From positions 22,134,991 through 22,198,990 of the forward strand of contig CP136061.1 of the NCBI GenBank assembly GCA_032622095.1: a stretch of 64,000 nt of DNA, read 5' to 3'. The position numbers and the translations under genes were made by a program. Numbering within the stretch: position 1 is the stretch's first letter; every line of letters begins with the position of its first letter. The DNA is from Siphonodentalium dalli. Taxonomy: Eukaryota > Mollusca > Scaphopoda > Gadilida > Siphonodentaliidae. The notes under the pieces were generated by a model. The model did not search any database, had not been told where the DNA came from, and worked only from the letters and a program-made list of their open reading frames with translations. Of this stretch, positions 37,901-63,801 are shown piece after piece.

Positions 37901-40900
37901 CACCGCAACACCATGGGTCACCGGTAATTACTGCAAACATTCTATATATCCAACCGGAATCGCATACCACCATGAATCACCGCAACACCATGGGTCACCG
38001 GTAATTACCGCAAACATTTTATATATCCAACAGGAATCGCATACCACCACGAATCACTGCAACACCATGGGTCACCGGTAATTACCGCAAACATTCTATA
38101 TATCCAACGGGAATCGCATACCACCACGAATCACCGCAATACCATGGGTCACTGGTAATTACCACAAACATTCTATATATCCAACGGGAATCGCATACCA
38201 CCACGAATCACCGCAACACCATGGGTCACCGGTAATTACTGCAAACATTATATAAATCCAACGGGAATCGCATACCACCACGAATCACCGCAACACCATG
38301 GGTCACCGGTAATTAGCGCAAACATTCTATATATCCAACAGGAATCGCATTGCATAGGTCTACAATTTCATGCCAACAGTTTCTATAAACAATGCACAAC
38401 TAGAGATGGGCTTGTCCCAGATGGGACTAAGTAATACCTCCCGTATTCAAATGTTATTCGAATGAAGTAGCCATTACCATATATTTGGCACTGAAATTAT
38501 GTCAACAGGTAACCCTAACCCTAAACCCCCTAACCCTAACCCCTAACTCTAATCCTAAATTTATTGACTGAATAAAAGCTCAGAGAAAATTATGCATGTT
38601 GCCAAAAACTTTCTAAGTCGAAAAAGGGGGATAACTCCACCAAAAAATGTCGGACTAACGTCATAATCGCAGGTGCACAGGTTCCCATGGTACTAAATAT
38701 TTGTGCCAAGTTTTAAAAAAATTGACCTAAAAATGTAGGAATAAAAGCTCGGACAAAATTATACATGTTGCAAAAAAATTCTAAGTCGAAAAAGGAGGTA
38801 TAACTCCACCAAAAAAAAGTCTGACAGACGTCATAATCACAGGTGCACAGGTTCCCATGGTGGTTGATGTCTGTGCCAAGTTTCACGGAAAATGATCATA
38901 AAACGACTGAGAAAAACTCCGGACAAAATTGTGCCCACGGTACGACAGACAGACGGACAGACGGCTCGACAGATGGACGGACAGATGGCGCGAAGGACGG
39001 ACGGACAAGCTGATACCAGTATACCCCCCACAACTCGTTGCGGGGGGTATAATGAATTGGTCTCAAAATAAATGCGCAGGTTACATAAATCAATAAATAA
39101 CGACCTCGCCAGCATGTGTAATAGAGCTGTTAGCTATTAATGCACTGATTGTGTAATGCCCTATCGAAGCTGGAATACCTGGAGATACACCTTCTCAATA
39201 AGATGTCATAAACCTGCTATTGTTGACCCTGTTGATGTGACTAAATATGATATCAGATCCACAATTTCAAGTCCCCCACGAAATGGCCCTTTTATGAGAA
39301 ACCACAAAAATTTATGCCAATGAAATCAAAGCCATTTACAGTAGTGATACTGGGACAACAATGTTACTATTTTTAGAACAATACTCTGTGGCAGTGATTA
39401 ACCCTTCGATGACTGGAGTTACCTCCCTTATTAACCTTCGATGACTGGAGCTACCTGAAATTTTGCGAAAACCATGTAACACATATAAGAGAATGCATTG
39501 GCCTAAGAATATTTACCTTGACCTTGTAAGCCAGTGCATTCTCTTATATATATGTGAGGCTCCCTATGGGAGACTCGCATATATAAGAGAATGCACTGGC
39601 ACAGGGTCTTTAATGCTGCTTTAGCGCAGCTCCGGCGGTCATGAAAGGGTTAATGTTTTTTTATGGACAATATCTCAGAGATTATGTGACATTAGCAGCC
39701 AGATGCTGACAGCCTGTTTATTCTATACACATGTGTATTCATAAAATATATCTGTACAATATATAAACAGCGACGAGATTCTGGTAGCCTGTTTATTCTA
39801 TACATGGGGTATTCACAAAATATATCCCTACAAAATACAGGCGTACTTTTGCCCGTGTATTTAGCCACTTTGTGTATGTCTGTGGTTGGTTGTAACCTGC
39901 TCCACCATATTATTGTTTTGAAGAGTAATCATGTTCTATTGGGGTTGTTAGATTGACAATGTGATTAGCAGTTTTTATGTCTTGTCGGGTCGATTTTGCT
40001 GTTCGGATCAGATTTTATGTTTGAACTATGTGTTGGATAATTGTATAAATGGATCGGAAAATAAACCCTTCACTGGCAGCTACCGGTATGTGGACATTAA
40101 ATAAAACGTTTGGGTGCCGATCACACAGTAATATCATGCTGCCTGATAAGGCAATAATTATGTTTTCAAACTGATACGGACGACCATCGTCCAAAAACGC
40201 AACATCAGAATACACAGCACATGGCATGTCGATACAAAATATGGAACATGTTTTGGTTGAGTATATCTCACATATAAGCCTATTACTCTTAGGCTGGACC
40301 GTGATATATATATATCACTGAGGATGAGGAACATTTCAAAATACACTGTCCTCGTTATAACATTCAATGGATATTACTATATGAAAAAATGGAACAAATT
40401 ACAACTAATTTTATGGAACTTGTCGGAAATGCCAAATTACATATTCTTTTTTCTGTTGATGATCGAATATGTAATAGGGCATTTTATTCAGTTATTTTAT
40501 TCAGACAGCTTCATAAATAAGACATAAGTAATCTGACAACAACAACATCCACTAGCCAATGCTGGACATTAACTTTATATTTCCCTATTTATGCTTGATT
40601 TCCGTGTCATGTTATATGTCTGTTTTCTTTATTTTCTGTATGTCACATGTACATGTATATTGCCATACCGGAATGTACTTGTTTTTGGTCATGCAATAAA
40701 GGTCTATCTATCTATCTATAAGCATGTGTAAAATACACAGGCTACCAGCATCTGGCCACATATGTTTGTTATGTGACTTTATGGGGATAGTAATACAAAC
40801 ATCAAAACATGTTTTATAAAAAAAAATTTAAAGAACTTTTGTTAGGCCAAAAAAAAAAGAAGTTTTGGTTCTCAGGCCCTGCCGCATTGAATAAAAAGGG

Positions 40901-43900
40901 CCGCATTAGGCCTTTTTATTGCAATGCCTGATGTTATGACAAAAACAATTTGAAAAAAAAGAAAAAAAAAGGTTTTTTTTTGTGTGGATTTTATCAACAT
41001 GTCCATAGCAGATATGTCTTGAATATTAGTGTGCATTGAGCTCTAACATGTAATGTGTTAAAAAGTGACTTGCAGGCTTACAACATGAAGTAGATGACTA
41101 CAATTAAGAAAATGATTAGCTGATCCTCATGCTCTTTTTACAATTAGTCATTGTGAACAACTTACACTAATTGTAACTTTATACAATTGAAAGGCACAGG
41201 ACTAAATTCAGGATAACATATTAGAATGGGGAGGTATCAGTTTTTAGACAACAATAACAGTAGTTAATGTCAGGGGCATTATATATTGTTAGGTCATCCC
41301 AGTCATACACTGGTAGTACAATGTCATTTTTATATAAGACTATATGAGTTTATATGCATAACAGTTCCCTCTACCTCTCTGGTTATTACTAGACAGAGGA
41401 AGGTATCTTTGTCCATGCTTACTATGCGCAGAAAAAAATAAAAAATAAAAATAAAACCCTCCCTCATTGATTTGAAGAAAAAAAATGCCCGAGAACCAAA
41501 ACACATTTTTTTGTTGGCCTTATTGGAAGTATTTTCCAAGGAGGGCCCCAGTCTTTTAAAATGAACTCACCAATGATTCCTCCCACATCGTTCCATATAG
41601 ATATCTCGTCTGATTTCTTTTCATCCCATCCACACACCTCATTAAGATAATATGAACTCACCAATGATTCCCCCCACATCGTTCCATATAGATATCTCGT
41701 CTGATTTCTTTTCATCCCATCCACACACCTCATTAAGATAACATGAACTCACCAATGATTCCTCCCACATCGTTCCATATAGATATCTCGTCTGATTTCT
41801 TTTCATCCCATCCATACACCTCATTAAGATAGTATGGCAGCCAGAAGAAGAAGGAATAATTGACTAGCTTCAAACACGCATAAGCAAGCGAGTACTGTAA
41901 AAGACAAAACACAATGCCTATATTTAAGCTGAACGGGTCACTCTCACCAAAAAAAGTGCTGAAGGGTACACAGGGTTTGAAAATGTGCTGAAGGGTACAC
42001 AGGATTTGTGATCGGCACAAACACCATTACTTAAATTGTGTTTATGAAAGTCTGGCGCCCATTAGCAGTTTGTTTTCAGTACATTTTAATATTCATTGGA
42101 ACGTAAACAATTATTCTCTAACAGAAATCATGGCAGGTACGAAAACTGAATGCCTTTAGAACGACATTTCAAACCCTGTGTACCATTCAGCACATTTTGA
42201 AAATCCTGTGTACCCTTCAGCACTTTTTTTGGTGAGAGTGACCCCTTCAGCTATATTTAACCCTTTCAGTGACAAGTCCGATTTAGAGCTCTTTCCATCA
42301 ATGTATCACATTATTATAATCAATAAATTTGAAAAATGATCAAGGAAATATGGGTTGCTACAAAAATCGCACTTGGCACTGAAAGGGTTAAAATCAGGAA
42401 GGTAAAAGAACAAAATCTGTCTATATTTTAATATTTTTTCTGTTTAGGGTGGTTTTAATGAATGTGACTATTTTAACGGCATACCCTCCATGAAGGCCAT
42501 CCTGTCTACTCAACGTGATAAGAGCTTGTATTAATATTGTAGTATACTGATTAGGTTGTCATCCATGACATAATTTATGTCGTACATCTCTATTAATTAA
42601 TGTTGTAGTATAGTCCTTCGATAGTGGAAAACGGCAGGTGCTCTGCCAATCGCGTGGCTCTTTTGAAGTTTACGAGTGCTGTTTTGGAAGTCGAATTATA
42701 TAATAATTATCAAAGAGGGATTGTTATAAAAGATAATACAATCAACAATGTTATCTGAAACAAAACATTGTTTAACCCTTTACCCAACAAACCGGCCAAA
42801 ACCGGCCACATAAAGCTTCAACAGCCTAAAATATCTTCGGTCTGTCTCAATAGAACCATACAAATATGGATATCATTGGAACCGGCTCCTTGACCACATT
42901 GTGATAGTTACAGTTATGCCCTGTGCCAATGCATTCTCTTATATATGCGAGTCGACCATAGGTCGCCTCGCATATATAAGAGAATGCATTGGCCTAAAAA
43001 ATTCTTTTTTTAACATTTTTTACAATTTTTCTTACATTCTTTAACAATTTTTTAATTTTTAATGTGTTAAGCCAATGCATTCTCTTATATATGCGAGGCG
43101 ACCTATGGTCGACTCGCATATATAAGAGAATGCATTGGCACAGGGTCCTTCTGTTGGGTAAAGGGTTAATTAACCATAGCATCATGCCTCTCTAATAATT
43201 GCTGGCACAGAAAATAAATGTATAACTGAATTAAATTAACTTAAATCCTTCACCGCAATGCGCGTACAACATATGGTCAATTTCGGAAAGTTATTAATCA
43301 GAAGAGTGTCGTCTGCTCACGTTTGCATGGGCTCTGTATGGGTGAAATTATAAAATTGTTAAAGAATACAAGAAAAAATTATTAAAATTGTAACAAAATT
43401 GTTAGGCCAATGCATTCTCTTATATATGCGAGGCGACCTATGGTCGACTCGCATATATAAGAGAATGCATTGGCACAGGGTAAAAAATCCCGACTTACGA
43501 CTCGATCTAATGTGTCTGACATTTAGAGAATGAGGTACAACATATGCTCAATTTCGGAAAGTTATTAATCAGATTCAGTGAGTCAAGGTCGCTTGATTCA
43601 GAAGGCATCTCCACGGAATCGGAACCGGAGCAGTCAATGTGAGGTACATGTACTATCAGTATCCATGTATCCAGTGTCTGCCATGGCTAACTATATAATG
43701 TGAGGTACTATCAGTATCCATGTATCCAGTGTCTGCCATGGCTAACTATATAATGTGAGGTACTATCAGTATCCATGTATCCAGTGTCCGCCATGGCTAA
43801 CTATATAATGTCAGGTACTATCAGTATCCATATATCCAGTGTCTGCCATGCCTAACTATATAATGTCAGGTACTATCAGTATCCATGTATCCAGTGTCCG

Positions 43901-46900
43901 CCATGGCTAACTATATAATGTGAGGTACTATCAGTATCCATGTATCCAGTGTCCGCCATGGCTAACTATATAATGTCAGGTACTATCAGTATCCATGTAT
44001 CCAGTGTCTGCCATGGCTAACTATATAATGTCAGGTACTATCAGTATCCATGTATCCAGTGTCCGCCATGGCTAACTATATAATGTCAGGTACTATCAGT
44101 ATCCATGTATCCAGTGTCTGCCATGGCTAACTATATAATGTCAGGTACTATCAGTATCCATGTATCCAGTGTCCGCCATGGCTAACTATATAATGTCAGG
44201 TACTATCAGTATCCATGTATCCAGTGTCTGCCATGGCTAACTATATAATGTCAGGTACTATCAGTATCCATGTATCCAGTGTCCCCCATGGCTAACTATA
44301 TAATGTCAGGTACTATCAGTATCCATATATCCAGTGTCTGCCATGGCTAACTATATAATGTCAGGTACTATCAGTATCCATGTATCCAGTGTCTGCCATG
44401 GCTAACTATATAATGTCAGGTACTATCAGTATCCATGTATCCAGTGTCCGCCATGGCTAACTATATAATGTCAGGTACTATCAGTATCCATGTATCCAGT
44501 GTCCCCCATGGCTAACTATATAATGTCAGGTACTATCAGTATCCATATATCCAGTGTCTGCCATGGCTAACTATATAATGTCAGGTACTATCAGTATCCA
44601 TGTATCCAGTGTCTGCCATGGCTAACTATATAATGTCAGGTACTATCAGTATCCATGCATCCAGTGTCCGCCATGGCTAACTATATAATGTCAGGTACTA
44701 TCAGTATCCATGTATCCAGTGTCTGCCATGGCTAACTATATAATGTCAGGTACTATCAGTATCCATGTATCCAGTGTCTGCCATGGCTAACTATATAATG
44801 ATTAATCAATGTCAGGTACTATCAGTATCCATGTATCCAGTGTCCGCCATGGCTAACTATATAATCATTAATCAATGTCAGGTACTATCAGTATCCATGT
44901 ATCCAGTGTCCGCCATGGCTAACTATATAATCATTAATCAATGTCAGGTACTATCAGTATCCATGTATCCAGTGTCCGCCATGGCTAACTATATAATGAT
45001 TAATCGACTATAAAAGCATGAACTTCATATAATTGGCAGCTATTCTTATTATAACAGCTTAACATGGAATGTACAACCATTAGACAACAGAAGATTAAAG
45101 GTTGCTGACAAATCAAACTTTGCCAACAAAAACAATTCAATGTCACACTTGACACACCATGTACATTTCATTCACATGATCGCAGGCGCCCTACATGGAA
45201 CTACATGTACAAAGGTGGCGACAATTGGCTCAGATAACTCATTGTTGCAGTGGATATACTGTAAAAGAACATTTATTCGTGGTGGTCCAATTTTCGTGGT
45301 TTTCGTGGTTGCTGATAACCACGAAATTAAAACCCCACGAAAAATTAATCTTTGAAACTAGATCGATTTTGAGAAATAAGAAATGTCACGTGGGAGGTAA
45401 CTCTATTGGTTTAAGTGTAGATGTCTTAGTGCCAACATTTGCATTATGCAGTTGACCATTTGGGGTTGTATTTTATATGGTGCAGACTAATAGACGTTGG
45501 CTTCAGTAAATAATCGCCAGTCTCATAATTAATGTCGTACCTCTCTATTAGGATGGTACCAGTCTCATAATTAATGGCGTACCTCTCTATTAGGATGGTA
45601 CCAGTCTCATAATTAATGTCGTACCTCTCTATTAGGATGGTACCAGTCTCATAATTAATGTCGTACCTCTCTATTAGGATGGTACCAGTCTCATAATTAA
45701 TGTCGTACCTCTCTATTAGGATGGTACCAGTCTCATAATTAATGTCGTACCTCTCTATTAGGATGGTACCAGTCTCATAATTAATGTCGTACCTCTCTAT
45801 TTAGGATGGTACCAGTCTCATAATTAATGTCGTACCTCTCTATTAGGATGGTACCAGTCTCATAATTAATGTCGTACCTCTCTATTTAGGATGGTACCAG
45901 TCTCATAATTAATGTCGTACCTCTCTATTTAGGATGGTACCAGTCTCATAATTAATGTCGTACCTCTCTATTAGGATGGTACCAGTCTCATAATTAATGT
46001 CGTACCTCTCTATTAGGATGGTACCAGTCTCATAATTAATGTCGTACCTCTCTATTAGGATGGTACCAGTCTCATAATTAATGTCGTACCTCTCTATTAG
46101 GATGGTACCAGTCTCATAATTAATGTCGTACCTCTCTATTAGGATGGTACCAGTCTCATAATTAATGTCGTACCTCTCTATTAGGATGGTACCAGTCTCA
46201 TAATTAATGTCGTACCTCTCTATTAGGATGGTACCAGTCTCATAATTAATGTCGTACCTCTCTATTAGGATGGTACCAGTGCACTGAGGTGAAAGTACCA
46301 CACAGGATAAAGTAAAGTAATTGACCAAAATATAGCAACAGATGTGTAATAAAAACAAAAGCCTATCTTCGATCAATGAATAAAATGATATAAAAATTAA
46401 TAAGATAAGAAATGAGAATTTGTTCACGTTCACTGAATTAAGTGCATTTGAAGCAATGAACACTCATCCTGAGTCCGTGCCTCCATACATGGGATATACA
46501 GTAATGCCCTAATTAATCGACTCTTTAACCACAGCAGAATTATGGGTAACTTTTCAGGATTTAGTCGGAAATATGGCTGGAGGAGAGCTTTCCGATGAAT
46601 GGCAACAAGCCATATTTCCGACTAAATCCTGAAAAGTTACCCATAATTCTGCTGTGGTTAAAGAGTCGATTAATTAGGGCATTACTGTACCAGTATCTAG
46701 TATATATTAATCTGCAGTGATTTACTTACAGGAATAACACCAGGAAGTAGGACAGCTTGTAGAAAACTAATCGCTTTTGGTCGCTCTCTAACTGCGCTAT
46801 ATGTGGATTGGAGGCTGCTCTCCGGCACTCGTAGTAGAGGTTCTACAATCGATACATTCAACCCTTGAAATAGTGAGCCTGATGGCCAATGCATTCTCTT

Positions 46901-55900: not shown

Positions 55901-58900
55901 AATTTTATAATTTCACCCTTACAGAGCCCCAGACAAACATGAGCAGACGACACTCTTCTATATGCTTCTATATATGTGTGGGGCTCCCTGCAGGGTAATG
56001 GATGTTTTTTATTTAATGTCCTAAAAATTGTAAGAAACATTTATTTAAAAAAAATGATAAAAAATTGTTACAAAGTAAAGTTGAGCTAATAATCGTGGCA
56101 TCTCTATCATTTATGGAACCATCTCCTATTATACTCAACAGAATATATGAAACAAATGAATGAATTTTAGGCAGGGATTAGTGCAAAAAAAAACACTCAT
56201 GTGACTCAAGTCATTCATTCACTTTCATTATAATTACTATGTTTTTTTACATCGTTCATAGAGCAAATGAGTGAAATTTGGACTCATCCATGGCTCAAAT
56301 TCATGCATTTGTTGCATATATTCAGTTGAGTATAATAGGAGATGGCCCCATAAATGGCAGGATTTTGTGTACAGTACCCCATTAGGCACAAATTTACTTT
56401 TAAAGTGAACTACCCTTACTTCTTAAGTATATTAAGGCCTACCTCAGTATTAATGTGATAATCAAAATTATAAAAAGTACAAACAATAGAGACAATATGG
56501 CATACAACATCTTCAAATAAACTGTCGACCTTTCGTTAAAATTTTAGAGATAAGCTTGACATCTATAAATTTAGATGTAGACAAAGTGTCGGACAGACAA
56601 TGCAGAACCTGAACGTTGCATGGAACGCGATAAGGAAACTCTATCATATCACATAATTAGCCACTAAACACAGCCTCATATTTTAAAGTAAGACACATGT
56701 GTACTATCGGCACGTGCAATGACTAAATGTTTACCTCATAACCAAACTGTAATACTGATGCTGCTAGCAGAGCACCAATAATATTCCCAACAGATGCACA
56801 TGCACTCCATAAGCCAAGCACAAAACCACGACTGCAAAGATAAATAAAGGATACTTAGTGTTTTGGGTGTCACAATTTATCAAATGTAAATGAGAATTTA
56901 AGTTTGAACCCTTCCATGAATGGAGCTTCCAGAAATTTTGCGAAATTGTGCCAATGCATTCTCTTATATATGTGAGTCTCCCATAGGGAGCCTCGCATTT
57001 ATAAGAGAATGCATTGGCCTAACAATATTTACCTTGACCATGTAAGCCAGTGCATTATCTTATATATATGCGAGGATCCTGCATATATAAGAGAATGCAC
57101 CCACATAAGATCTTTAATACTGCACCAGCAGCTCCTGTCATGAAAGGGTTAAATAACATAGCAATTTAAAAAAACTTAATTTTAGATTAGTTTTAAGTGA
57201 TTCGGCAAAGTTTTGAATATCACAGCAAATTGAATACTTGGCAAGAGTTTTGGGGAAAAAACATAACTCCAGATATTTTTGTTTGAACTAATTTCAATAA
57301 AGTTTTGCAAACTGTAGAACATTTGTAACTTGGCAAGAATTTTGGAAAAACACAACTCATGTATAGTTTACTGTTAGCTAGTTAACCAAAGTTTTGAATA
57401 ACTTTAATATTAAGAAAAAAATCTAGTAAGAAAATTGGAAAACTACAACCCCGGACGAGTACGAGCACTGAGGATCCCTGCAGTAAGTACATACCTGGAT
57501 CGGCCAAACCAGTTTCCCATGACAGCGACTACACTGGGCCAACCAGTCGATTGGAACAGACCGTTGAGTATCCATAGGAACACATACATATATTTGTTAT
57601 AATATTTAGTCCATTCCATCACACATCCAAACAGGAAGACCTAGAAAATCAAACAAACTTGAAGTTACTTCTGAGGGCTCAACACTCCAAGCCTGCAAAT
57701 AGTGTGTGTCATTTGTAGAATGAGGTCCCAGAGGGTCAATTTAGTGATGATATCCCGAAAAGGGCTAGCATCACCAAATTTACCCTCTGCGAACCTCAAC
57801 TGCTATGGGAGACCTAGGATCAGATTAAGTTCCCCAGTTGAAGTGGGTGATGTTCACCCATTGGTCACCTCGATTATGCATTTTATAGTCTGCAAATTAG
57901 GCGATATAGAAACTTCCCAGAAGGAAACAAAAGTAACTATAAAACAATGTTAATTTGAGACAAAAGATACTTCACAAAAGATGAGGCCTAAGCAGAATGA
58001 GGTCCCCAGAGGGTGAATTTAGTGATGCTAGCCCACCATGCTAGCATGATGCGACTCTTGTTATTATTTTATATCCCGAAAACTATATAAAATGTGTTTA
58101 GGAAGAGATATTCTATTTTTAAAATTGAGCAATCTTGAGGATAAATTTGGCAACTTGATTTCATACCTCTCTTGTCTTTTAGTTTTATCTGTTAATAATT
58201 AGCTTCATACCATGGTCTGTCACAGACTAATGAACCGCTATCCTTTTTCAATATTTAAAAAAATGCAACAAATTCATCAATATTGTGTTAAAGAAGCTCC
58301 ATTTGTTTGTACATTTTCTAAACCAGAAAATAATGCAATCGTACGAGCCCATTAACAAGAGGTTTGATCGTATCCAGGAGTCCATTAACAAGACGTTTGA
58401 TCATATCCACGAGCCCATTAATAAGAGGTTTGATCGTATCCATGAGCCCATTAATAAGAGGTTTGATCGTATCCACGAGCCCATTAACAAGAGGTTTTAT
58501 CGTAGCCATGAGCCCATTAATAAGAGGTTTGATCGTATCCATGAGCCCATTAATAAGTGGTTTGATCGTATCCATGAGCCCATTAATAAGAGGTTTTATC
58601 ATATCCATGAGCCCATTAATAAGACGTTTGATCATATCCATGAGCCCATTAATAAGAGGTTTTATCGTATCCATGAGCCCATTAATAAGAGGTTTTATCA
58701 TATCCATGAGCCCATTAATAAGAGGTTTGATCGTATCCATGAGCCCATTAATAAGAGGTTTGATCGTATCCATGAGCCCATTAACAAGAGGTTTGATCGT
58801 ATCCATGAGCCCATTAATAAGACGTTTGATCGTATCCATGAGCCCATTAATAAGAGGTTTTACCGTATCCACGAGCCCATTAATAAGAGGTTTTATCGTA

Positions 58901-61900: not shown

Positions 61901-63801
61901 TGTAACAGTAAACACGGAAGTGAATAAAAACTCAATGCGGATGTGAAACTTACTGTACTTCGTGACGCCACGGAGTCACGATAATTTAAAAAAAAGTCAT
62001 ACTGGACTCGAATCAGATTATCATGTGACAGCTTTTACCCAATCAGAAAAAGTGTTAGTTAAGGGATGGATAATAATAATTAAGAAAATATATAAACTTA
62101 CCTATCTCCCAACATGCCACTTATGAATAGACCCTGGAACAATTGTGAAGAAAAGTAATTAAAAGTAAAGATTATATTAAAGGTACATGTACTATTATAC
62201 ATGCAATACGGAAGGCTGCACTTCATAAATACTGTAATGTCCTAATTAATCGACTCCTTTAACCACAGCAGAATTATGGGTAACTTTTCAGGATTTAGTC
62301 GGAAGAGAGAGACTCGGGGAGAGCTTTCCGATGAATGGCAACAAGCCATATTTCCGACTAAATCCTGAAAAGTTACCCATAATTCTGCTGTGGTTAAAGG
62401 AGTCGATTAATTAGGGCATTACTGTATGTTGAATAACATGGTACATATCTTAAGACACAGCATTTGAACAAGTTTGCTCACAAAAAGGAACATACTAGTA
62501 CCACAACATAGAATAACATAATGTATGACCAAAACATATCACATAATGTTTGTTTGATCTAGCAATTTATTTTTTCAAGAGATGTGATGCGACGACCAGA
62601 TAAGTTCACTCTAGTGATAATAAGTTATTGTATCATATAAATTAAATTCAAACAAGCAGTCGCCGACGGCGGTATCCCCCGCCGAATTGTGCAGTTGGGG
62701 AAGTGCATTCTCAATAATGTTTACATTCTCAGTATGCGCTAAACAAGAGGTGGGATTTTGTCAAAAAGCCTGGCTTGCGAACTTATTTTAGGTACTGGTC
62801 ATGGGAACTCATATACCAAATATCTTTGAAATCCATTGAGATTTGTGGAAATGAGCCCTGGGACGTCGTCTATTTGCTATTTGGTAAATTCGACAAAAAT
62901 AATAAACAAAGTCCAATAACTCAGGTAAAAATATCTGGCCAGACCTGGCTTGCGAACTCATTCTAGGTAATTGTCAGGTGAACTCATATACCACAAATCT
63001 TTGAAAACCGTTTACATTTGTTCAAGTTATGACTCTTACAAATTCGGGACGGACGGGCGGTGCGACGGCTCGACGGACGGACGGAACCCATTACTATATC
63101 CCCCGCAAATTTTTAATTTGGCGGGGGATAATAACCACAATTAAATGATATAAACCCATGTAAAGAGGCAATAACTTTTTTTAAATATAACAATAACCAG
63201 AGAAACAGCTTAACCCTTTACCCAACAGAAGGGCCCTGTGCCAATGCATTCTCTTATATATGCGAGGCCAATGCATTCTCTTATATATGCGAGGCGAGCT
63301 ATGGTCGACTCGCATATATAAGAGAATGCATTGGCACAGGGCATAACTGTAACTATCACAATGTGGTTAAGGAGCCGGTTCCAATGATATCCATATTTGT
63401 ATGGTTCTATTGAGACAGACCGAAGATATTTTAGGCTGTTGAAGCTTTATTTAGTCGGTTTTGGCTGTTTTGTTGGGTAAAGGCTTAAACAATGTACAGA
63501 GAATTTTTTTTATATACACCTCCACATGCATAATCATATAGAAGTACATCTGAATATTTCTTTTGTGGTGGGTTGAATAATAAAATATGTAGTCCGGCTT
63601 TAATGTGCATTGCACACTCCCTAACATAAAGGATGGTGGTATGACATTTATTCAAACTGTAGCTTTCATTGAATCAAACTTTATTATCAAAGTATTATCA
63701 AAACATACCACAGCATAGGATATCATAAAGCTGGCATCTAACACACCCAGGAAAAAAGAGGCATCAGAACTCATGTTGAACATTGTGTGACTGTTCCATA
63801 T
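34816..63801 (-). CDS. SLC37A3: SLC37A3-like sugar-phosphate exchanger homologue (MFS), 12 internal exons, both ends outside window
   Basis: Twelve exons, read from high to low coordinates, join in phase into 353 codons. Seen: every intron has GT/AG ends. The loop between membrane segments 2 and 3 carries the MFS motif A-like stretch GMLGDRFDLRK. Later come LWSACASVGN, a variable acidic/proline-rich central loop (residues ~169-226), AISFLQAVLLPGVIP, SLAYACLKLVNYSFFFWLP, SIWNDVGGIIGG and SAAISADLG. From memory of the family these match vertebrate SLC37A3 better than SLC37A1/A2 or the glucose-6-phosphate transporter SLC37A4. Known: SLC37 proteins have 12 membrane helices; A1 and A2 exchange phosphate for sugar phosphates at the ER; human SLC37A3 works with ATRAID in lysosomal release of nitrogen bisphosphonates. 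Inferred: helices ~2-10 are encoded here. About 45 N-terminal and ~95 C-terminal residues are missing, expected beyond 64,000 and left of position 1. Promoter and UTRs are not visible. Confidence 0.9.
34994..35146. mobile_element. Foldback element in intron
   Basis: CTATTTTATACGGAATTTATCAACC returns inverted as the arm around GGTTGATAAATTACGTATAA, with outer CTCACATGAG / GAGTGTGAG ends. Loop of about 60 bp. No coding capacity. The rest of 35,147-35,808 holds no feature I recognise. Confidence 0.65.
35809..35881 (-). CDS. SLC37A3: SLC37A3-like exon k (73 nt)
   Basis: Acceptor TTTTTTCAG, donor GTAGTA (weak). It encodes DRFQRRAIVVMPMLILAIPT then LFIY and the first base of a serine codon. It corresponds to the cytoplasmic loop and helix 9. 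The donor was chosen because phase and residues continue into exon l. Confidence 0.88.
35882..36509. other. Intron sequence with no recognised feature
   Basis: AT-rich intronic sequence upstream (gene sense) of exon k. No splice-consistent coding segment, tandem repeat or inverted repeat stood out. Confidence 0.45.
36510..36960 (+). pseudogene. 5'-truncated non-LTR retrotransposon, reverse-transcriptase C-terminal tail
   Basis: On the plus strand a frame reads AIRYISNICNYPSSPTKML, then WPTLSRRRDFYSLIFFHKIL, and ends with FYPRTISLWNNIPTD and FKDALHNYF. This pattern (WPTL.RRR...L.FYKI, then PRTI..WN.LP, then F...L) is typical of the last part of LINE reverse transcriptases. A stop lies in frame at 36,510 and nothing of the catalytic core is present. 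A 3' A-rich tail (aataaacaaaaaac) follows. A dead fragment inserted antisense to the host gene. Confidence 0.75.
37068..37088 (-). repeat. Isolated 21-bp match to the 60-bp minisatellite unit
   Basis: The minus strand here matches 21 consecutive bases of the minisatellite unit (from CATACAGC through TTTATAGTT). It lies in the intron after microexon j, about 3 kb outside the array and inverted relative to it. Confidence 0.7.
37176..37201 (-). CDS. SLC37A3: SLC37A3-like microexon j (26 nt)
   Basis: Acceptor CTCTTTTAG, donor GTGAGC. It completes the split glycine and encodes GTIAGFLS after it, joining NDVGGIIG of exon i to DRFQRRA of exon k. The family has GG..(A/Q)G.(L/I)SD at this place. Both phases fit exactly, which is strong support for so short an exon. 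Confidence 0.88.
37263..37862. repeat. 85-88 bp minisatellite, about 7 units
   Basis: GTATGTAAAGAG recurs at 37,271, 37,359, 37,447, 37,532, 37,617, 37,702 and 37,787: spacing 88, 88, then 85. Units include GTGCGAAAGCAAAACACTC and CGTGACCCATTATAA. The array starts 62 bp upstream of microexon j in gene sense. Confidence 0.95.
37889..38345. repeat. 77-bp minisatellite, about 6 units
   Basis: Units contain CACCATGGGTCACCGGTAAT and TATATATCCAAC. The spacing between the first two CACCATGAATCACCG marks (37,891 and 37,968) is 77 bp. It follows the 85-bp array almost directly. Confidence 0.93.
38397..39053. mobile_element. Dispersed CGGA-tailed repeat element (copy 1)
   Basis: Begins AACTAGAGATGGGCTTG and ends in a GACGGACAG-rich stretch followed by CTCGTTGCGGGGGGTATAA. 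The inside holds two diverged ~170-bp units with TAACTCCACCAAAAAA and CAGGTGCACAGGTTCCCATG. Related copies at 51,802 and 52,582. ORFs on the minus strand here are reading-through of the repeat. I cannot assign a superfamily. Confidence 0.8.
38509..38556. repeat. Short interstitial CCCTAA-like repeat
   Basis: Several imperfect TAACCC units inside the dispersed element at 38,397. Too short and irregular to mark a chromosome end. A weaker trace is seen at the equivalent place of the copy near 51,930. Confidence 0.7.
39054..39397. other. Intron sequence with no recognised feature
   Basis: No exon-like segment, tandem repeat or inverted repeat recognised. Confidence 0.45.
39398..39653. mobile_element. 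TTAA-bounded MITE, backbone III, with palindrome core
   Basis: TTAACCCTTCGATGACTGG at one end and GGTCATGAAAGGGTTAA at the other, so TTAA flanks inverted CCCTT ends, as in piggyBac-like elements. A second TTAACCTTCGATGACTGG lies at 39,431. The core holds the GAGAATGCATTGGCC / CAGTGCATTCTCTTATATAT arms in two partial copies. Confidence 0.8.
39685..40795. mobile_element. 1.1-kb interval bounded by inverted repeats
   Basis: GCCAGATGCTGACAGCCTGT at the left is matched inverted by ACAGGCTACCAGCATCTGGC at the right, with further similarity outward (ATGTGAC / GTTATGTGAC). A second left-end-like copy lies at 39,775. Parts recur at 59,780-59,935 and 61,500-61,625. It contains a retrotransposon 3' end. 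Confidence 0.65.
40400..40719 (+). pseudogene. Non-LTR retrotransposon 3' end with TCTA tail
   Basis: A frame near 40,450 reads SVDDRICNRAFYSVILFRQL before a stop, like the extreme C-terminus of some LINE reverse transcriptases. The 3' UTR-like sequence ends GCAATAAAGG then (TCTA)n at ~40,700-40,717. A frame change separates this from the upstream ORF, so it is a remnant. Confidence 0.5.
40796..41560. other. Intron sequence with small A-rich and palindromic pieces
   Basis: Contains a short palindromic piece around GGGCCGCATTAGGCCTTTTT (40,880-40,925) and A-rich tracts. A GGTTCTC(A/G)GGC motif next to an A/T-rich run appears at 40,868 and inverted near 41,490, suggesting a dispersed short repeat. 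No exon recognised. Confidence 0.4.
41561..41833 (-). repeat. 91-bp tandem triplication of exon 3' end plus splice donor
   Basis: ATGAACTCACCAATGATTCC recurs at 41,561, 41,652 and 41,743, exactly 91 bp apart (first copy CATTC-side variants differ slightly). Each unit holds the last 81 nt of exon i, from YYLNEV through GGIIG, then the GTGAGTTCAT donor. The copy at 41,743-41,833 belongs to the real exon. The two others read VCGW instead of VYGW and lie in the downstream intron. Confidence 0.95.
41753..41894 (-). CDS. SLC37A3: SLC37A3-like exon i (142 nt; 3' half is tandemly copied downstream)
   Basis: Acceptor TTTTACAG, donor GTGAGT. It encodes YSLAYACLKLVNYSFFFWLP, then YYLNEVYGWDEKKSDEISIW and NDVGGIIG (last codon split). 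This covers helix 7 and the loop to helix 8 and is among the most conserved parts of the protein. The 3' 81 nt plus the donor recur twice more downstream in the intron at an exact 91-bp spacing. Confidence 0.95.
41924..42260. mobile_element. TTAA-bounded foldback element
   Basis: GGGTCACTCTCACCAAAAAA and GTGCTGAAGGGTACACAGG return inverted at 42,200-42,245. The outer edges (TTAAGCTGAA / TTCAGCTATATTTAA) show TTAA at both ends. The right TTAA is shared with the next element. Confidence 0.8.
42257..42391. mobile_element. TTAA-bounded MITE, backbone I, without palindrome core
   Basis: TTAACCCTTTCAGTGAC to GGCACTGAAAGGGTTAA. Read on the minus strand it matches the elements at 51,348 and 54,446 through GATTTTTGTA and CAACCCATAT. 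There those elements have the palindrome and this one does not. Confidence 0.8.
42392..42771. other. Intron sequence with one relic of the 42-bp repeat
   Basis: At 42,569-42,595 a single diverged copy of the 42-bp unit is present (TATGTCGTACATCTCTATTA), about 3 kb from the main array in the same intron. Nothing else recognised. Confidence 0.5.
42772..43169. mobile_element. TTAA-bounded MITE, backbone II, with two palindrome cores
   Basis: TTAACCCTTTACCCAACA to TGTTGGGTAAAGGGTTAA. It holds two complete palindromes (42,920-42,995 and 43,070-43,145) around an AT-rich middle, and GGAACCGGCTCCTTGACCAC. An inverted relative lies at 63,210. Confidence 0.85.
43240..43525. mobile_element. MITE backbone IV with palindrome core (copy 1)
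   Basis: The palindrome at 43,405-43,482 is flanked by GAGTGTCGTCTGCTCACG on one side and CCCGACTTACGACTCGATCT on the other. The same flanks recur inverted at 55,735-55,975. Outer ends are not clear. Confidence 0.7.
43636..45006. repeat. 55-bp minisatellite, about 25 units
   Basis: The unit contains GGTACTATCAGTATCCATG and CCATGGCTAACTATATAATG. CCATGG marks at 43,681 and 43,736 give 55 bp. The last four units are 63 bp through an added ATTAATCA. GTCTGCC and GTCCGCC units partly alternate, suggesting multi-unit duplication. Confidence 0.96.
45007..45254. other. Intron sequence with no recognised feature
   Basis: Short unique-looking stretch between two repeats. Confidence 0.4.
45255..45357. 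mobile_element. Small dispersed element of a common invertebrate type
   Basis: ATACTGTAAAAGAAC followed by TTTTCGTGGTTTTCGTGG and AACCACGAAATTAAAACC. I recognise this pattern as a short dispersed repeat of molluscan genomes, from memory only. Its ends cannot be fixed here; 45,358-45,517 shows nothing else. Confidence 0.45.
45518..46279. repeat. 42-bp minisatellite, about 18 units
   Basis: The unit contains CAGTCTCATAATTAATGTCG and TACCTCTCTATTAGGATGG. A few units are 43 bp (TATTTAGG). A minus-strand ORF through it (ILIERYDINYE repeats) is a by-product of the 3n unit length. Confidence 0.96.
46499..46687. mobile_element. Foldback MITE, Tc1/mariner-like (copy 2)
   Basis: CAGTAATGCCCTAATTAATC to GATTAATTAGGGCATTACTG, flanked by TA on both sides. 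Arms of ~85 bp with GAATTATGGGTAACTTTTCA. It lies 43 bp from the donor end of exon h. Confidence 0.88.
46730..46878 (-). CDS. SLC37A3: SLC37A3-like exon h (149 nt; start uncertain)
   Basis: The 3' part (RERPKAISFLQAVLLPGVIP, donor GTAAGT) is strongly SLC37A3-like and enters membrane segment 7. The 5' boundary is less sure. CATCAG at 46,879-46,884 gives phase 1 and 149 nt but has almost no pyrimidine tract, because a palindromic element begins immediately upstream. Later in-phase acceptors would start the exon at 46,863 (after TTTCAAG) or 46,791 (after GCGCAG). The intervening residues belong to the variable central loop, so homology cannot decide. Confidence 0.85.
46884..46957. mobile_element. 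Palindrome core next to an exon acceptor
   Basis: GCCAATGCATTCTCTTCTAT / ATATAAAAGAATACATTGGC. A diverged copy of the palindrome, ending three bases from the acceptor CAG proposed for exon h. It replaces the sequence where a pyrimidine tract would be expected. Confidence 0.75.
46998..47225. mobile_element. MITE backbone III with palindrome core, inverted (diverged)
   Basis: TTAACTCTTTCATAATGGG at one end and AAGTGATGGAAGAGTCAAAT at the other, the inverted counterpart of the element at 56,905. Palindrome at 47,071-47,135 with a partial third arm at 47,158. Confidence 0.7.
47226..47575. repeat. Short tandem pieces and AT-rich degenerate repeat
   Basis: AGCTCTTACTATAT and CCAGTTATACCCC / CCAGCTACATCCC units at 47,268-47,350, then a T-rich stretch with repeated CTTACATTCTTTA-type motifs that also follows the palindrome in other elements. 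Confidence 0.6.
47576..47697. mobile_element. Palindrome core with one backbone III end
   Basis: Palindrome GGCCAATGCATTCTCTTATA / GAGAATGCATTGGCAC, then AGCTCCAGTCATGGAAGGGTTAA at the right. The left end is in the AT-rich stretch and is not clear. Confidence 0.7.
47805..47985. repeat. ~86-bp tandem repeat, about 2 units
   Basis: TTACAATATGTATTAAAGC followed by ATACCCCTCTCTGTAG and ATTCCAGTTATACCCC, occurring twice. Related to the pieces at 47,268. It ends 20 bp from the donor of exon g. Confidence 0.75.
48003..48062 (-). CDS. SLC37A3: SLC37A3-like exon g (60 nt, central loop)
   Basis: Acceptor ATTTACAG, donor GTGAGA; phase 1 in and out. It encodes a proline-rich segment, LPMPDEVNPPPIEVLPPDQ, part of the poorly conserved cytoplasmic loop between helices 6 and 7. 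Support comes from splice sites, phase and position rather than strong homology. The acceptor lies directly against the 66-bp minisatellite on its intron side. Confidence 0.75.
48063..50890. repeat. 66-bp minisatellite, about 43 units, abutting exon g acceptor
   Basis: The unit contains GGTCTGCCAGTAAATATACA, CAGTATCACATATAGACTC and ATGAGTGTCGTACAGTGTTA. A few units are 64 bp (CACAATAGAC). The first partial unit merges with the exon g acceptor: the plus-strand exon edge GGCAGACCTGTAAATATTTA aligns to the unit's GCCAGTAAATATACAC. Plus-strand ORFs of up to 549 codons (VLGLPVNIHSITYRLYYHEC repeats) follow from the 3n unit length and are not called genes. Confidence 0.97.
50927..51292. mobile_element. 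MITE family C (copy 1)
   Basis: AAGCCTGTATTTAGTGTGTC, then GGTGAATTTAGTGATGCTA and an internal inverted GATAGCATCACTAAATTCAC. It ends near GGTGATGCTAGCCCAC. Relatives at 53,340 and 57,686. Confidence 0.75.
51348..51603. mobile_element. TTAA-bounded MITE, backbone I, with palindrome core
   Basis: TTAACCCTTTGAGTGCCAGG to CCTGGCACTCAAAGGGTTAA. The palindrome (51,400-51,467) follows CAACCCATATACCCTG. An AT-rich stretch with ATTCTTTAACAGACTTATT follows it. Confidence 0.88.
51604..51801. other. Intron sequence with no recognised feature
   Basis: A-rich sequence between two elements; nothing recognised. Confidence 0.4.
51802..52581. mobile_element. Dispersed CGGA-tailed repeat element (copy 2, complete-looking)
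   Basis: AACTAGAGGTGTGACTGTCC to TCGTTGCGGGGGGTATAAC. The inside carries about three ~170-bp units (GGAATAAAAGCT marks near 51,969, 52,138 and 52,308), then a GGACGGACGACGGACGG stretch. Minus-strand ORFs here are repeat read-through. Confidence 0.82.
52582..52945. mobile_element. Dispersed CGGA-tailed repeat element (copy 3, truncated)
   Basis: Starts AACTAGAGATGGGCCCG directly after copy 2 and contains two partial internal units. It stops after AGATGGACAGACAGACGG without the GGGGGG end. Confidence 0.75.
53104..53280. repeat. AT-rich short tandem repeat
   Basis: Irregular runs of TTAGCATATTATCATATTAT units, about 18-27 bp each. The stretch before it (52,946-53,103) holds nothing recognised. 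Confidence 0.9.
53340..53997. mobile_element. MITE family C (copy 2, both ends present)
   Basis: AAGCCTGAGTTTAGTGTGTC at the left and CACACTAAACACAGGCTT at the right form terminal inverted repeats. GGTGAATTTAGTGA..CTAGC motifs repeat inside in both directions. Confidence 0.78.
53998..54279. repeat. Intron sequence with a small ~32-bp tandem repeat
   Basis: CACCATTATAAAACCATTAT followed by AGTGAGTAACAA occurs about 2.5 times at 54,108-54,180. Nothing else recognised. Confidence 0.6.
54280..54449. mobile_element. TTAA-bounded MITE with 20-bp inverted ends
   Basis: TTAAAGGACTATGGAATCTC to GAGATTCCATAGTCCTTAA. About 170 bp. Its right TTAA is also the left TTAA of the next element. Confidence 0.85.
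54446..54889. mobile_element. TTAA-bounded MITE, backbone I, with palindrome core
   Basis: TTAACCCTTTCAGTGCCAGG to CCTGGCACTGAAAGGGTTAA. The palindrome (54,497-54,565) follows CAACCCATATACCCGG. Longer than the copy at 51,348 by about 190 bp in its right half. 54,890-55,193 shows nothing recognised. Confidence 0.88.
55194..55278 (-). CDS. SLC37A3: SLC37A3-like exon f (85 nt)
   Basis: Acceptor ATTACAG, donor GTATGA. It encodes YTFLLTSSVLFSFGVIIFF then ALIPDPRDI and the first base of a glycine codon. This is membrane segment 6 running into the cytoplasmic central loop. Confidence 0.92.
55304..55682. mobile_element. TTAA-bounded dispersed element (copy 1)
   Basis: TTAAAGTCATATTATGTACT to GTTTCACATCACTTTAA. 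It shares CTAACATCGCCGAAAAT and CGTACCACTCCATAGAAAAC with the copy at 61,024. The right TTAA is shared with the next element. Confidence 0.82.
55679..55985. mobile_element. Composite TTAA element: backbone III end then backbone IV with palindrome
   Basis: TTAACCCTTCCATGAAATTT and a half palindrome arm (55,711-55,733) are followed by backbone IV flanks (CAGTCGTAAGTCAGG), a full palindrome (55,784-55,852) and CATGAGCAGACGACACTC. It looks like two elements joined. Confidence 0.7.
56108..56365. mobile_element. Foldback element
   Basis: CCATCTCCTATTATACTCAA and CAAATGAATGAATTT return inverted as AAATTCATGCATTTG and TTGAGTATAATAGGAGATGG. The sequence between, and up to the donor of exon e, holds nothing else recognised. 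Confidence 0.75.
56735..56831 (-). CDS. SLC37A3: SLC37A3-like exon e (97 nt)
   Basis: Acceptor TTTGCAG, donor GTAAAC. It completes a split serine and encodes RGFVLGLWSACASVGNIIG, then ALLAASVLQFGYE. This is membrane segment 5 of the family and is close to the vertebrate SLC37A3 version. Confidence 0.95.
56905..57152. mobile_element. MITE backbone III with palindrome core
   Basis: AACCCTTCCATGAATGGAGC to CTCCTGTCATGAAAGGGTTAA. Left TTAA decayed (TTTGAACCC). Palindrome at 56,951-57,020 and a second short one at 57,048-57,097. Confidence 0.8.
57153..57494. other. Intron sequence with no recognised feature
   Basis: AT-rich, with loosely repeated GGCAAGA(G/A)TTTTGG motifs at 57,240 and 57,335 that suggest an old duplication of about 95 bp. 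Confidence 0.4.
57495..57640 (-). CDS. SLC37A3: SLC37A3-like exon d (146 nt)
   Basis: Acceptor TTCTAG, donor GTATGT. It encodes VFLFGCVMEWTKYYNKYMYV followed by a segment with FLWILNGLFQSTGWP and VVAVMGNWFGRS. The NGL.QSTGWP..V..MGNWFG pattern is a hallmark of SLC37 proteins around membrane segments 3-4. Confidence 0.95.
57686..58043. mobile_element. MITE family C (copy 3)
   Basis: AAGCCTGCAAATAGTGTGTG, GGTCAATTTAGTGATGATA and GCTAGCATCACCAAATTTAC, then a second GGTGAATTTAGTGATGCTAG near 58,010. No protein-coding signal. Confidence 0.72.
58044..58343. other. Intron sequence with no recognised feature
   Basis: AT-rich sequence leading into the 33-bp array. Confidence 0.4.
58344..59192. repeat. 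33-bp minisatellite, about 26 units
   Basis: The unit contains GAGCCCATTAATAAGAGG and TTTGATCGTATCCAT. It is open in two plus frames (303 and 280 codons) and one minus frame (283 codons), as expected for a stop-free unit of length 33. The 303-codon plus ORF (PINKRFDRIHE repeats) begins in non-repeat sequence at 58,285. I see no splice or promoter evidence and do not call it a gene. 59,193-59,490 shows nothing recognised. Confidence 0.96.
59491..59542 (-). CDS. SLC37A3: SLC37A3-like exon c (52 nt)
   Basis: Acceptor TTGCAG, donor GTAAGA. It completes the split arginine and encodes FDLRKVLSIGMCLAAIT, the end of motif A and the start of membrane segment 3. Phase 2 in, phase 0 out. Confidence 0.9.
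59760..60000 (+). repeat. Dispersed repeat shared with 40.0-40.26 kb (inverted)
   Basis: GCCATGTGCTGTGTATTCTG and ATGTTGCATTTTTGAATGAT match the minus strand of 40,170-40,235. It belongs to the same family as the 1.1-kb inverted-repeat interval at 39,685. Confidence 0.75.
60001..60595. other. Intron sequence with no recognised feature
   Basis: AT-rich. A small cluster of GGCCA motifs lies near 60,165-60,215. No exon or clear repeat. Confidence 0.4.
60596..61020. repeat. Interval with possible inverted ends
   Basis: TTCTATTTATTACATGATCC at 60,611 is partly matched inverted by GGATCATGTAATAAATAATT at 60,986. This could be an old foldback element of about 400 bp. No coding capacity seen. Confidence 0.5.
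61024..61352. mobile_element. TTAA-bounded dispersed element (copy 2)
   Basis: TTAAAGACATATTATGTACT to GTTTCGCATCACTTTAA, the same family as 55,304-55,682, with several internal deletions relative to it. Confidence 0.82.
61370..61640 (-). repeat. Dispersed repeat shared with 39.7-39.95 kb (inverted)
   Basis: On the minus strand CCCGTTTATTCTATACACG, GTATTCACAAAATATATCC and ACAAAATACAGGCATACTTT match the plus strand at 39,715-39,850. Confidence 0.75.
61645..61797. repeat. Long near-perfect inverted repeat
   Basis: Arms of about 60 bp: GTGTTTTTCTTGTACGAGTC and GAAAAGTCATATTGGAC return inverted as GTCCAATATGACTTTTC and GAGTACAAGAAAAACAC, loop ~30 bp. ORFs on both strands mirror each other. A further fragment (AAAAGTCATACTGGACTCG) lies at 61,993. 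Confidence 0.88.
62102..62133 (-). CDS. SLC37A3: SLC37A3-like exon b (32 nt)
   Basis: Acceptor TTCCAG, donor GTAAGT. It encodes GLFISGMLGD plus two bases of an arginine codon completed by exon c. With exon c it forms the cytoplasmic motif A loop of major facilitators. The short size is supported by exact phase continuity on both sides. Confidence 0.9.
62232..62424. mobile_element. Foldback MITE, Tc1/mariner-like (copy 3)
   Basis: CTGTAATGTCCTAATTAATC to GATTAATTAGGGCATTACTG with TA on both sides. Arms closely match copy 2 at 46,499. The centre differs (GAGAGAGACTCGGGG). Confidence 0.88.
62655..63131. mobile_element. Dispersed element ending in ATCCCCCGC / GCGGGGGAT
   Basis: Starts GCAGTCGCCGACGGCGGTAT then CCCCCGCC. 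Ends with CGACGGACGGACGGAAC and AATTTGGCGGGGGATAATA. Two internal stretches with CCTGGCTTGCGAACT suggest repeated inner units. Probably related in type, not in sequence, to the element at 51,802. Confidence 0.7.
63210..63488. mobile_element. MITE backbone II with palindrome core (inverted, right end decayed)
   Basis: TTAACCCTTTACCCAACAGA, then an arm and a full palindrome (63,238-63,338), GGAGCCGGTTCCAATG and TTGTTGGGTAAAGGCTTAA. It is the inverted relative of 42,772-43,169. The intron on to exon a (63,489-63,708), and 63,802-64,000 beyond it, show nothing else recognised. Confidence 0.82.
63709..63801 (-). CDS. SLC37A3: SLC37A3-like exon a (31 codons)
   Basis: Acceptor TTTTTCAG, donor GTATGT; phase 0 at both ends. 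It encodes IWNSHTMFNMSS then FFLGVLDASFMISYAV, the loop and membrane segment 2 of the family. It is the most upstream exon visible. The preceding acceptor at 63,802 shows that the gene continues beyond 64,000. Confidence 0.9.

Follow-up and report, generated by a model that had tools for sequence, protein, structure and literature searches.

The window, by which we mean the whole 64-kb stretch of DNA analysed here (C1:22,134,991-22,198,990, in a genome of 2.23 Gb on 9 contigs), carries a series of short mobile elements that share a near-perfect palindrome of about 69 bp with arms of 27 bp. The arm CCAATGCATTCTCTTATATA has 29 matches with at most three mismatches in the window, where 0.04 are expected and none of 100 shuffled sequences reaches 29. 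Grouped by reading, these matches form 13 palindromes (a hand count) and four lone arms, which start at 39,476, 47,154, 55,714 and 63,240, all within about 39,476-63,335. Folded as single-stranded DNA, the 69-mer at 42,925 forms a 27-bp stem with one T/C mismatch, five further pairs and an ATA loop (-35.4 kcal/mol, z -15.6). The initial annotation had described a palindrome of about 70 bp recurring some 13 times within at least four different backbones, in a region whose outer limits prove to be element tips (39,398, the tip of a III element, and 63,488, the tip of a II element). The arm search and reading recover the 13 copies, and four flank types recur among the genome places listed, so the pattern is real and non-trivial.

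The backbones are referred to as I to IV. A III TTAA element of the older type lies at 39398-39653 (forward strand), with a lone arm at 39476-39502 and a palindrome at 39530-39600. It is followed by I0 (42257-42391, forward), a TTAA element that is a palindrome-free cousin of backbone I and serves as the control for the empty state, and by a II TTAA element (42772-43169, forward) with two palindromes in opposite orientation at 42925-42993 and 43071-43139. A partial IV element on the reverse strand (43300-43502, inner limit approximate) contains a palindrome at 43406-43474 and part of an inner core that we call unit VI. A decayed III element with TCAA at both ends (46858-47228, unoriented) carries palindromes at 46885-46953 and 47071-47139 and a lone arm at 47154-47180, and a III end on the reverse strand (47390-47697, inner limit approximate) has an AT-rich tail of about 42-bp repeats and a palindrome with an intermediate centre at 47579-47649. 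Backbone I is represented by a TTAA element at 51348-51603 (forward) with a single palindrome at 51398-51466, and by a long form at 54446-54889 (forward) with its palindrome at 54497-54565. The start of a III element (55679-55733, forward) is cut within the palindrome arm by a IV element immediately downstream (55731-56070, forward; right end lost, limit set by reading), which has a palindrome at 55784-55852 and unit VI around 55941. A further III element (56905-57152, forward) holds a palindrome with a TCTCCC centre at 56950-57018 and a decayed one at 57046-57104, and the last of the series is a II TTAA element with a collapsed interior (63210-63488, forward), in which a lone arm (63240-63266) directly precedes a palindrome (63267-63335).

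Several other features share the window. More than 30 kb at its left (1-33958) is 60/42-bp satellite with a strong skew of G over C, the 60-bp consensus being present in 532.7 copies at 724-32,725; a 66-bp satellite occupies 48065-50890 (42.9 copies, 99% matches), and further arrays of 55, 42 and 33 bp are found at 43,650, 45,517 and 58,345. A second repeated palindrome (TTTAACCACAGCAGAATTATGGGTAACTTTTCAGGATTTAGTCGGAA...) is present at 46497-46689 and 62229-62427, and again at two of the fetched loci (L001 and L031); its arms in the window are 76 to 82 bp long and 97 to 100% complementary. An exon-like open frame on the reverse strand (57494-57640) resembles SLC37-type sugar-phosphate exchangers, with matches to PDB chains 23ic_A (E 1.1e-9) and 9ucm_A, which is SLC37A2 (E 9.6e-8), and on this resemblance the elements may sit in introns of an SLC37-like gene.

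Structure and edges of the shared cassette

Genome-wide, the 27-nt arm has 270,242 exact occurrences (135,135 forward and 135,107 reverse), and its reversed control has none. Some of the copies lie in tandem arrays on C1 that repeat about every 14.6 kb and 11.2 kb. Arms were present in one of 11 randomly sampled 4-kb stretches on C2 to C9, this single stretch (L142) containing nine of them at up to seven mismatches, which suggests, from a small sample of 11 stretches, that the arms are clustered in the genome.

The palindrome had been taken at first as the module itself. It is indeed part of a shared unit, and the real unit is larger: it begins at CCCTGT, 6 bp outside the palindrome, and is an inverted-repeat cassette of the form CCCTGT-palindrome-AT-rich tail-palindrome'-ACAGGG. 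The copies of II, IV and many of III that were read contain two palindromes per cassette in opposite orientation, and backbone I contains the left half of the cassette only, with one palindrome. The cassette has defined inverted-repeat ends, the CCCTGT edge standing at both of its sides in II, III and IV copies. After the first palindrome comes CCTAACA or a similar sequence and then, in most copies, an AT-rich tail with ATTCTTTAACA. The earlier description of a tail that often follows holds for most of these copies; in the older copies of III its place is taken by a short spacer. The palindromes have one of two centre types, S (TCTCCCATAGGGAGC) or G (TCGACCATAGGTCGC). Within the cassettes of IV and V, the latter a fifth flank type, lies unit VI, of about 90 bp (CCCATACAGAGCCCC...GAGCAGACGACACTCTTC...GGGGCTCCCTGCAGGG). 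It occurs in the window at 55941 (forward) and 43318 (reverse) and at loci L035 (position 827), L036, L037 and L057; its neighbour is a II tip in L057, and in L035 a IV element, and it is another exchangeable part. We also note that several II copies in the region of L001, L005, L014 and L028 (C1:111 kb to 736 kb) lack part of the palindrome between the arms, as expected if the hairpin is deletion-prone.

The sharpness of the edges is seen in genome-wide searches in which the backbone flank was fixed and the letters beside it were left free. Next to the I flank, the cassette or a slightly changed edge follows in 99 of the 100 places listed (13,952 in all), the one exception, at C1:17,088,501, running into palindrome-free I0. 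The left flank of II is followed by the edge or a recognisable remnant in 100 of 100 places listed (25,414 in all), and the IV flank by the cassette or a remnant likewise in all 100 (8,715 places, control 36). The III flank meets the edge in most of the 100 places listed, with more changes and a few ambiguous cases (11,546 places, control 1). Each backbone therefore meets the cassette at the same base in nearly all places listed. The position of the cassette is constant within a given backbone in the copies read and differs between backbones, so that the homologous placement which the initial annotation had set against exchange is found within each backbone and breaks down between them.

Taken from the other side, the exact cassette edge occurs at 139,453 places genome-wide. 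Clustering by flanks, as had been proposed, gave five flank types among the 100 exact edges listed, classified by hand as I (29), II (39), III (8), IV (22) and V (2); many of the I places are in tandem arrays and are not independent, and the exact pattern under-counts the more diverged III copies. Flank type V is a single duplicated locus (L036, L037) whose element ends were not found. Altogether the same edge adjoins seven flanks: I, II left, II right, III left, III right, IV and V.

Backbones, target sites and the question of common descent

Backbones I, II and III have terminal inverted repeats beginning CCCTT, which are piggyBac-type tips. TTAA is present on both sides in 10 of 11 II end pairs and in 5 of 6 I end pairs. 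Two short patterns for III yielded few pairs: the one pair from the first does not have TTAA on both sides, and two of the four from the second do; single III copies, such as those in L041 and L044, have TTAA at both ends, and others have one base changed. A II element in L059 (C1:6269500-6272150) contains an insert of about 2 kb at its tail TTAA, with ends AGGA...TCCT, which is perhaps a different TTAA-target element nested in the II copy.

All the backbones had been regarded as TTAA elements, and this stands for I and II, is probable for III, which has CCCTT tips as they do, and fails for IV. The ends of IV (TGTGACCC...GGGTCACA) are mirrored over about 45 bp outside the cassette. Of 14 end pairs, 13 have TA on each side and none has TTAA, and at 55,731 in the window the IV element begins in what reads as TATA of the III palindrome arm. 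IV is not a TTAA element, and fits a TA-target MITE, Tc1/mariner-like or other. Since the hosts have two types of target site, the cassette has crossed between elements with different target sites.

These backbones might nonetheless derive from a single ancestral element by ordinary divergence. All TTAA backbones do start CCCTT, the distance from tip to cassette is similar in I and III, and two weak BLAST matches between III and long I (72 and 74%) extend to the element tip. Those two are exceptions; most matches between family representatives start or stop within about 10 bp of the cassette edge. Flank scores between families lie at chance level, 2 of 46 being reached by fewer than 5% of shuffles (about the chance expectation), where the shuffles keep base composition only and CCCTT is held fixed; the two are the III right and I right tips (34 of 2000 shuffles) and the II right and I right edges (79 of 2000). 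Five within-family tip comparisons, in contrast, are reached by 0 to 2 of 2000 shuffles. A common ancestor of all backbones is thus unlikely. Divergence must also account for one family having a different target type while its G palindromes and those of the others are 0 to 3 arm changes apart, and for I0, which resembles I only up to the cassette edge, sharing about 40 bp with it and lacking the cassette. Copies of I0 stand between TTAA at 42,257 in the window, in L031 (one tip base changed) and in L039, and the end-pair comparison gave two TTAA/TTAA pairs. Derivation from one ancestor is accordingly the least probable of the accounts that we considered, and the original view of the backbones as different survives comparison with it, no likeness above that of shuffles being detected outside the cassette. 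No cassette-free version of II, III or IV was found, and I is thus the only backbone in which the state preceding acquisition is observed.

Possible free copies, hairpin function and transposase partners

All of the 100 exact edges listed lie in flank types I to V, and none is a cassette outside host elements with a target duplication; rare free copies may lie beyond the places listed. Odd flanks were sought genome-wide in two further ways, by requiring C or G and then TA ahead of the edge (365 places) and by requiring C or T there (1,290 places); by reading, the places listed from both searches are mostly mutated known flanks. Among 16 odd loci that were fetched, one (L119) holds a whole cassette, both edges included, in no known backbone. 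Its flanks are unlike on the two sides, and the right flank begins AT, not TA. Three others (L123, L127 and L129) have lost the ends at or near both edges and have IV-like letters just outside the right edge, five (L117, L120, L121, L124 and L125) lack one side or both, and seven (L118, L122, L126, L128, L130, L131 and L132) are altered copies of I, III or IV. Not one of the 16 is a convincing free, recent insertion of the cassette. An empty site was sought for L127 and none was seen; the surroundings of this locus resemble a tandem duplication whose repeated unit includes the cassette. Target duplications, proposed earlier as a check, do not appear in matching form round the cassette in II or III copies.

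It is conceivable that the cassette was once a small inverted-repeat transposon (CCCTGT...ACAGGG, perhaps with a TA target) that jumped into the MITEs and is now nearly extinct as a free element. This would suit the occurrence of one edge beside seven different flanks, the TA that adjoins the edge in I, IV and V, the existence of L119 with both edges and no known backbone, and the eight of 16 odd loci in which the edge passes to foreign DNA after TA (L117, L119-L121, L123-L125 and L127). However, the odd loci come from a pattern that demands TA (365 places genome-wide, compared with 139,453 exact edges), and as the interiors of most of them are those of I, II or IV, they can be accounted for by truncation. 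Requiring C or T next to the edge gave 1,290 places, and the 100 of these that are listed are mostly mutated known flanks. The missing duplications in II and III and the AT on the right of L119 also count against a history of jumping, which we regard as unlikely. We also rejected the idea that the cassette is inserting by way of TA today, odd TA flanks being few and explicable by truncation.

The genome does contain a plausible supply of piggyBac transposase, judged by domain matches: at least 128 matches to PF13843, the piggyBac domain, were found, many with open frames. An autonomous partner with the same ends had been suggested as something to look for. Neither the I, II or III tips nor the palindrome were present beside 26 piggyBac copies in the approximately 1 to 1.5 kb read on each side, and the idea that the palindrome is a piece of the piggyBac transposons themselves was dropped, it being absent from these same stretches; tips lying farther out would have escaped such a reading. 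One of the piggyBac copies, L079 (C7:154,938,550-154,939,700), has a possible tip, CACGTTGAGTGCCGG, which as TTAACACGTTGAGTGCCGG resembles the I tip TTAACCCTTTGAGTGCCAGG; on this resemblance it is a possible lead to a partner of I.

Could the palindrome instead be a transposase-binding or other functional site, kept or recruited by shared machinery while the flanks drift? Between I, II and IV the arms hardly differ, and the ends of piggyBac and piggyBat are described, in the part of that study available to us, as holding palindromic sites bound by paired C-terminal cysteine-rich domains (PMC11707139). Yet I0 copies stand between TTAA without any palindrome, IV has a TA target and so probably uses another transposase, and the palindrome is absent from the stretches read beside the 26 piggyBac copies. 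Changes in the arms are also uncompensated: no symmetric change is present among 85 G palindromes, and the 10 found among 23 S palindromes are reached by 684 of 2000 shuffles (these 85 and 23 were kept from 118 palindromes, changed duplicates being dropped). A binding-site role by analogy with the palindromes of piggyBac ends is possible and not favoured, and we rate a functional-site explanation of the whole pattern as improbable. An RNA gene or a selected hairpin was likewise discarded, with no Rfam match at gathering score in 36,000-64,000 of the window and no compensated stem changes beyond the level of shuffles.

Age of the copies, probable modular assembly and known systems

The two centre types are unequally spread among the backbones. 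Among classified edges with a readable 15-nt centre, centre G is found in 9 of 9 I, 24 of 24 II and 36 of 36 IV edges, and III is mixed, with S in 13 of 18 and G in the other five. The classification left 14 of 126 edges unclassified, 13 from the 16 odd-flank loci and one from L043; L122, which has an unclassified edge with centre S, reads as a III copy, and of four edges labelled V, the true V loci are L036 and L037, L048 being a I copy and L124 an odd locus. The arms of III are also the most diverged. In the window, where no selection of copies is involved, arm mismatches average 3.07 in III (14 arms) versus 0.13 in I, II and IV together (15 arms). Across all loci the means are 2.34 for III (29 edges), 0.22 for I (9), 0.68 for II (28) and 0.26 for IV (42), figures that are biased by the choice of loci, which are mostly first-listed places on one contig or were chosen by flank; several of the III loci L039-L044 were picked for odd edges, and the I and II loci were partly picked by exact arms.

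The tails tell a similar story. Of 81 distinct tails compared over their first 60 nt (duplicates, tails under 60 nt and those in which the second arm could not be read being left out), 70 have their nearest neighbour in the same backbone, where shuffling gives a mean of 21.8 and a maximum of 36. Without duplicated loci and same-locus neighbours the count is 65 of 76, the shuffled maximum again being 36. The 11 tails with a nearest neighbour in another backbone could reflect mislabelled V loci in some cases (two loci were wrongly labelled V), chance likeness of AT-rich sequence, or further exchange. The sorting of tails by backbone and the divergence of the III arms fit about one acquisition per backbone followed by amplification, with III the oldest.

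A palindrome that moves between elements at present, as the initial annotation envisaged, is not supported by tails that follow the backbone or by edges that, among the 100 listed, all lie in I to V. Exchange among MITEs fares better: one sharp-edged unit is present in unlike backbones and has reached IV, which is not a TTAA element, and it is the current movement that lacks support.

A plausible scenario, and the one that we favour with some confidence, is that these MITEs were built from modules, with III as the oldest form and with II, IV and I each acquiring the cassette about once and then multiplying it. The palindrome would be part of a discrete, non-coding cassette with inverted-repeat edges, the oldest surviving form of which would be that in the TTAA family III. 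A later form, with the centre TCGACCATAGGTCGC and the AT tail, would have been gained about once each by II, IV and I, either by a past insertion of the cassette or by its being copied in during gap repair. Each chimera would then have multiplied via its own ends by a transposase recognising those ends, with the cassette as a passenger. The samples contain shared edges, backbones alike at chance level, two target types, backbone-specific tails and very few free copies, and the form in III is the more diverged; single acquisitions, the priority of III and passenger status are steps that we infer.

A bolder version, to which we give little credence, makes the cassette a hyper-parasite, now extinct or nearly so: a unit bounded by inverted-repeat ends of its own, which entered MITEs of two target classes and was copied by their transposases. 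If this were true, L119 would be one of its last free insertions, and copying by the host transposases would have given rise to the 270,242 exact 27-nt arms present now. For the modular scenario, the wider interest is that the origin of MITE interiors is an open question. A cassette shared by unrelated families is a sign that MITEs can arise by the swapping of parts, and grouping MITEs by interior sequence would here wrongly merge TTAA and TA elements. The coexistence of an older form (in III) and a younger form, with exact edges and mixed target sites, makes repair capture versus mobile insertion testable across related genomes.

A literature search with sequence strings from the elements returned no match. 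Compared by the descriptions of the families, the closest precedent appears to come from corals: the CMITEs of Acropora millepora and A. palmata are piggyBac MITE families that differ in their ends and share a conserved interior of 75 bp (PMC2872659). As described in the available text of that paper, CMITEs are elements of about 100 bp with CCCTT or CCCCT tips and TTAA duplications, they occur in tandem arrays, a new element arose by CMITE insertion, and the origin of the interior is called a mystery (PMC2872659). The elements described here are CMITE-like in combining different terminal repeats with one conserved interior. They differ in that the CMITE families in that description are TTAA elements, whereas here the interior is also in a TA-target element and has a defined inverted-repeat edge; in copy number, estimated there at about 1,600 in one species versus 270,242 exact arms here; and in the palindrome, the word stem palindrom being absent from the available text (PMC2872659). 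What is new relative to the CMITEs, as far as that text describes them, is thus the TA-target host, the sharp edge and the copy number.

Exchange of parts has been described in other systems. The Galileo element of Drosophila mojavensis includes chimeras with the ends of one subfamily and the interior of another, and such exchange has been proposed as founding new subfamilies (PMC3573991). In the part of that report available to us, these chimeras arise within one P-superfamily element with long repeats, and 12 of 170 copies have ends of two subfamilies; here, in contrast, the chimeras have unrelated ends and are themselves numerous. For Anopheles P-MITEs and abortive gap repair, copying of an interior from elsewhere during break repair has been proposed (PMC1562414, PMC2213677), and the available portions of these accounts contain no interior common to families with different ends (PMC1562414, PMC2213677). 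The ends of piggyBac and piggyBat, like the elements here, have palindromes near TTAA tips, but those described in the available part of that study are protein-binding sites of 19 bp in piggyBac and 14 bp in piggyBat (one site, by coordinates), compared with about 69 bp here (PMC11707139). Set beside CMITEs and Galileo as those sources present them, the case described here is more extreme: the edge is defined, the cassette exists in an older and a younger form, one host has a TA target, and exact edges number 139,453.
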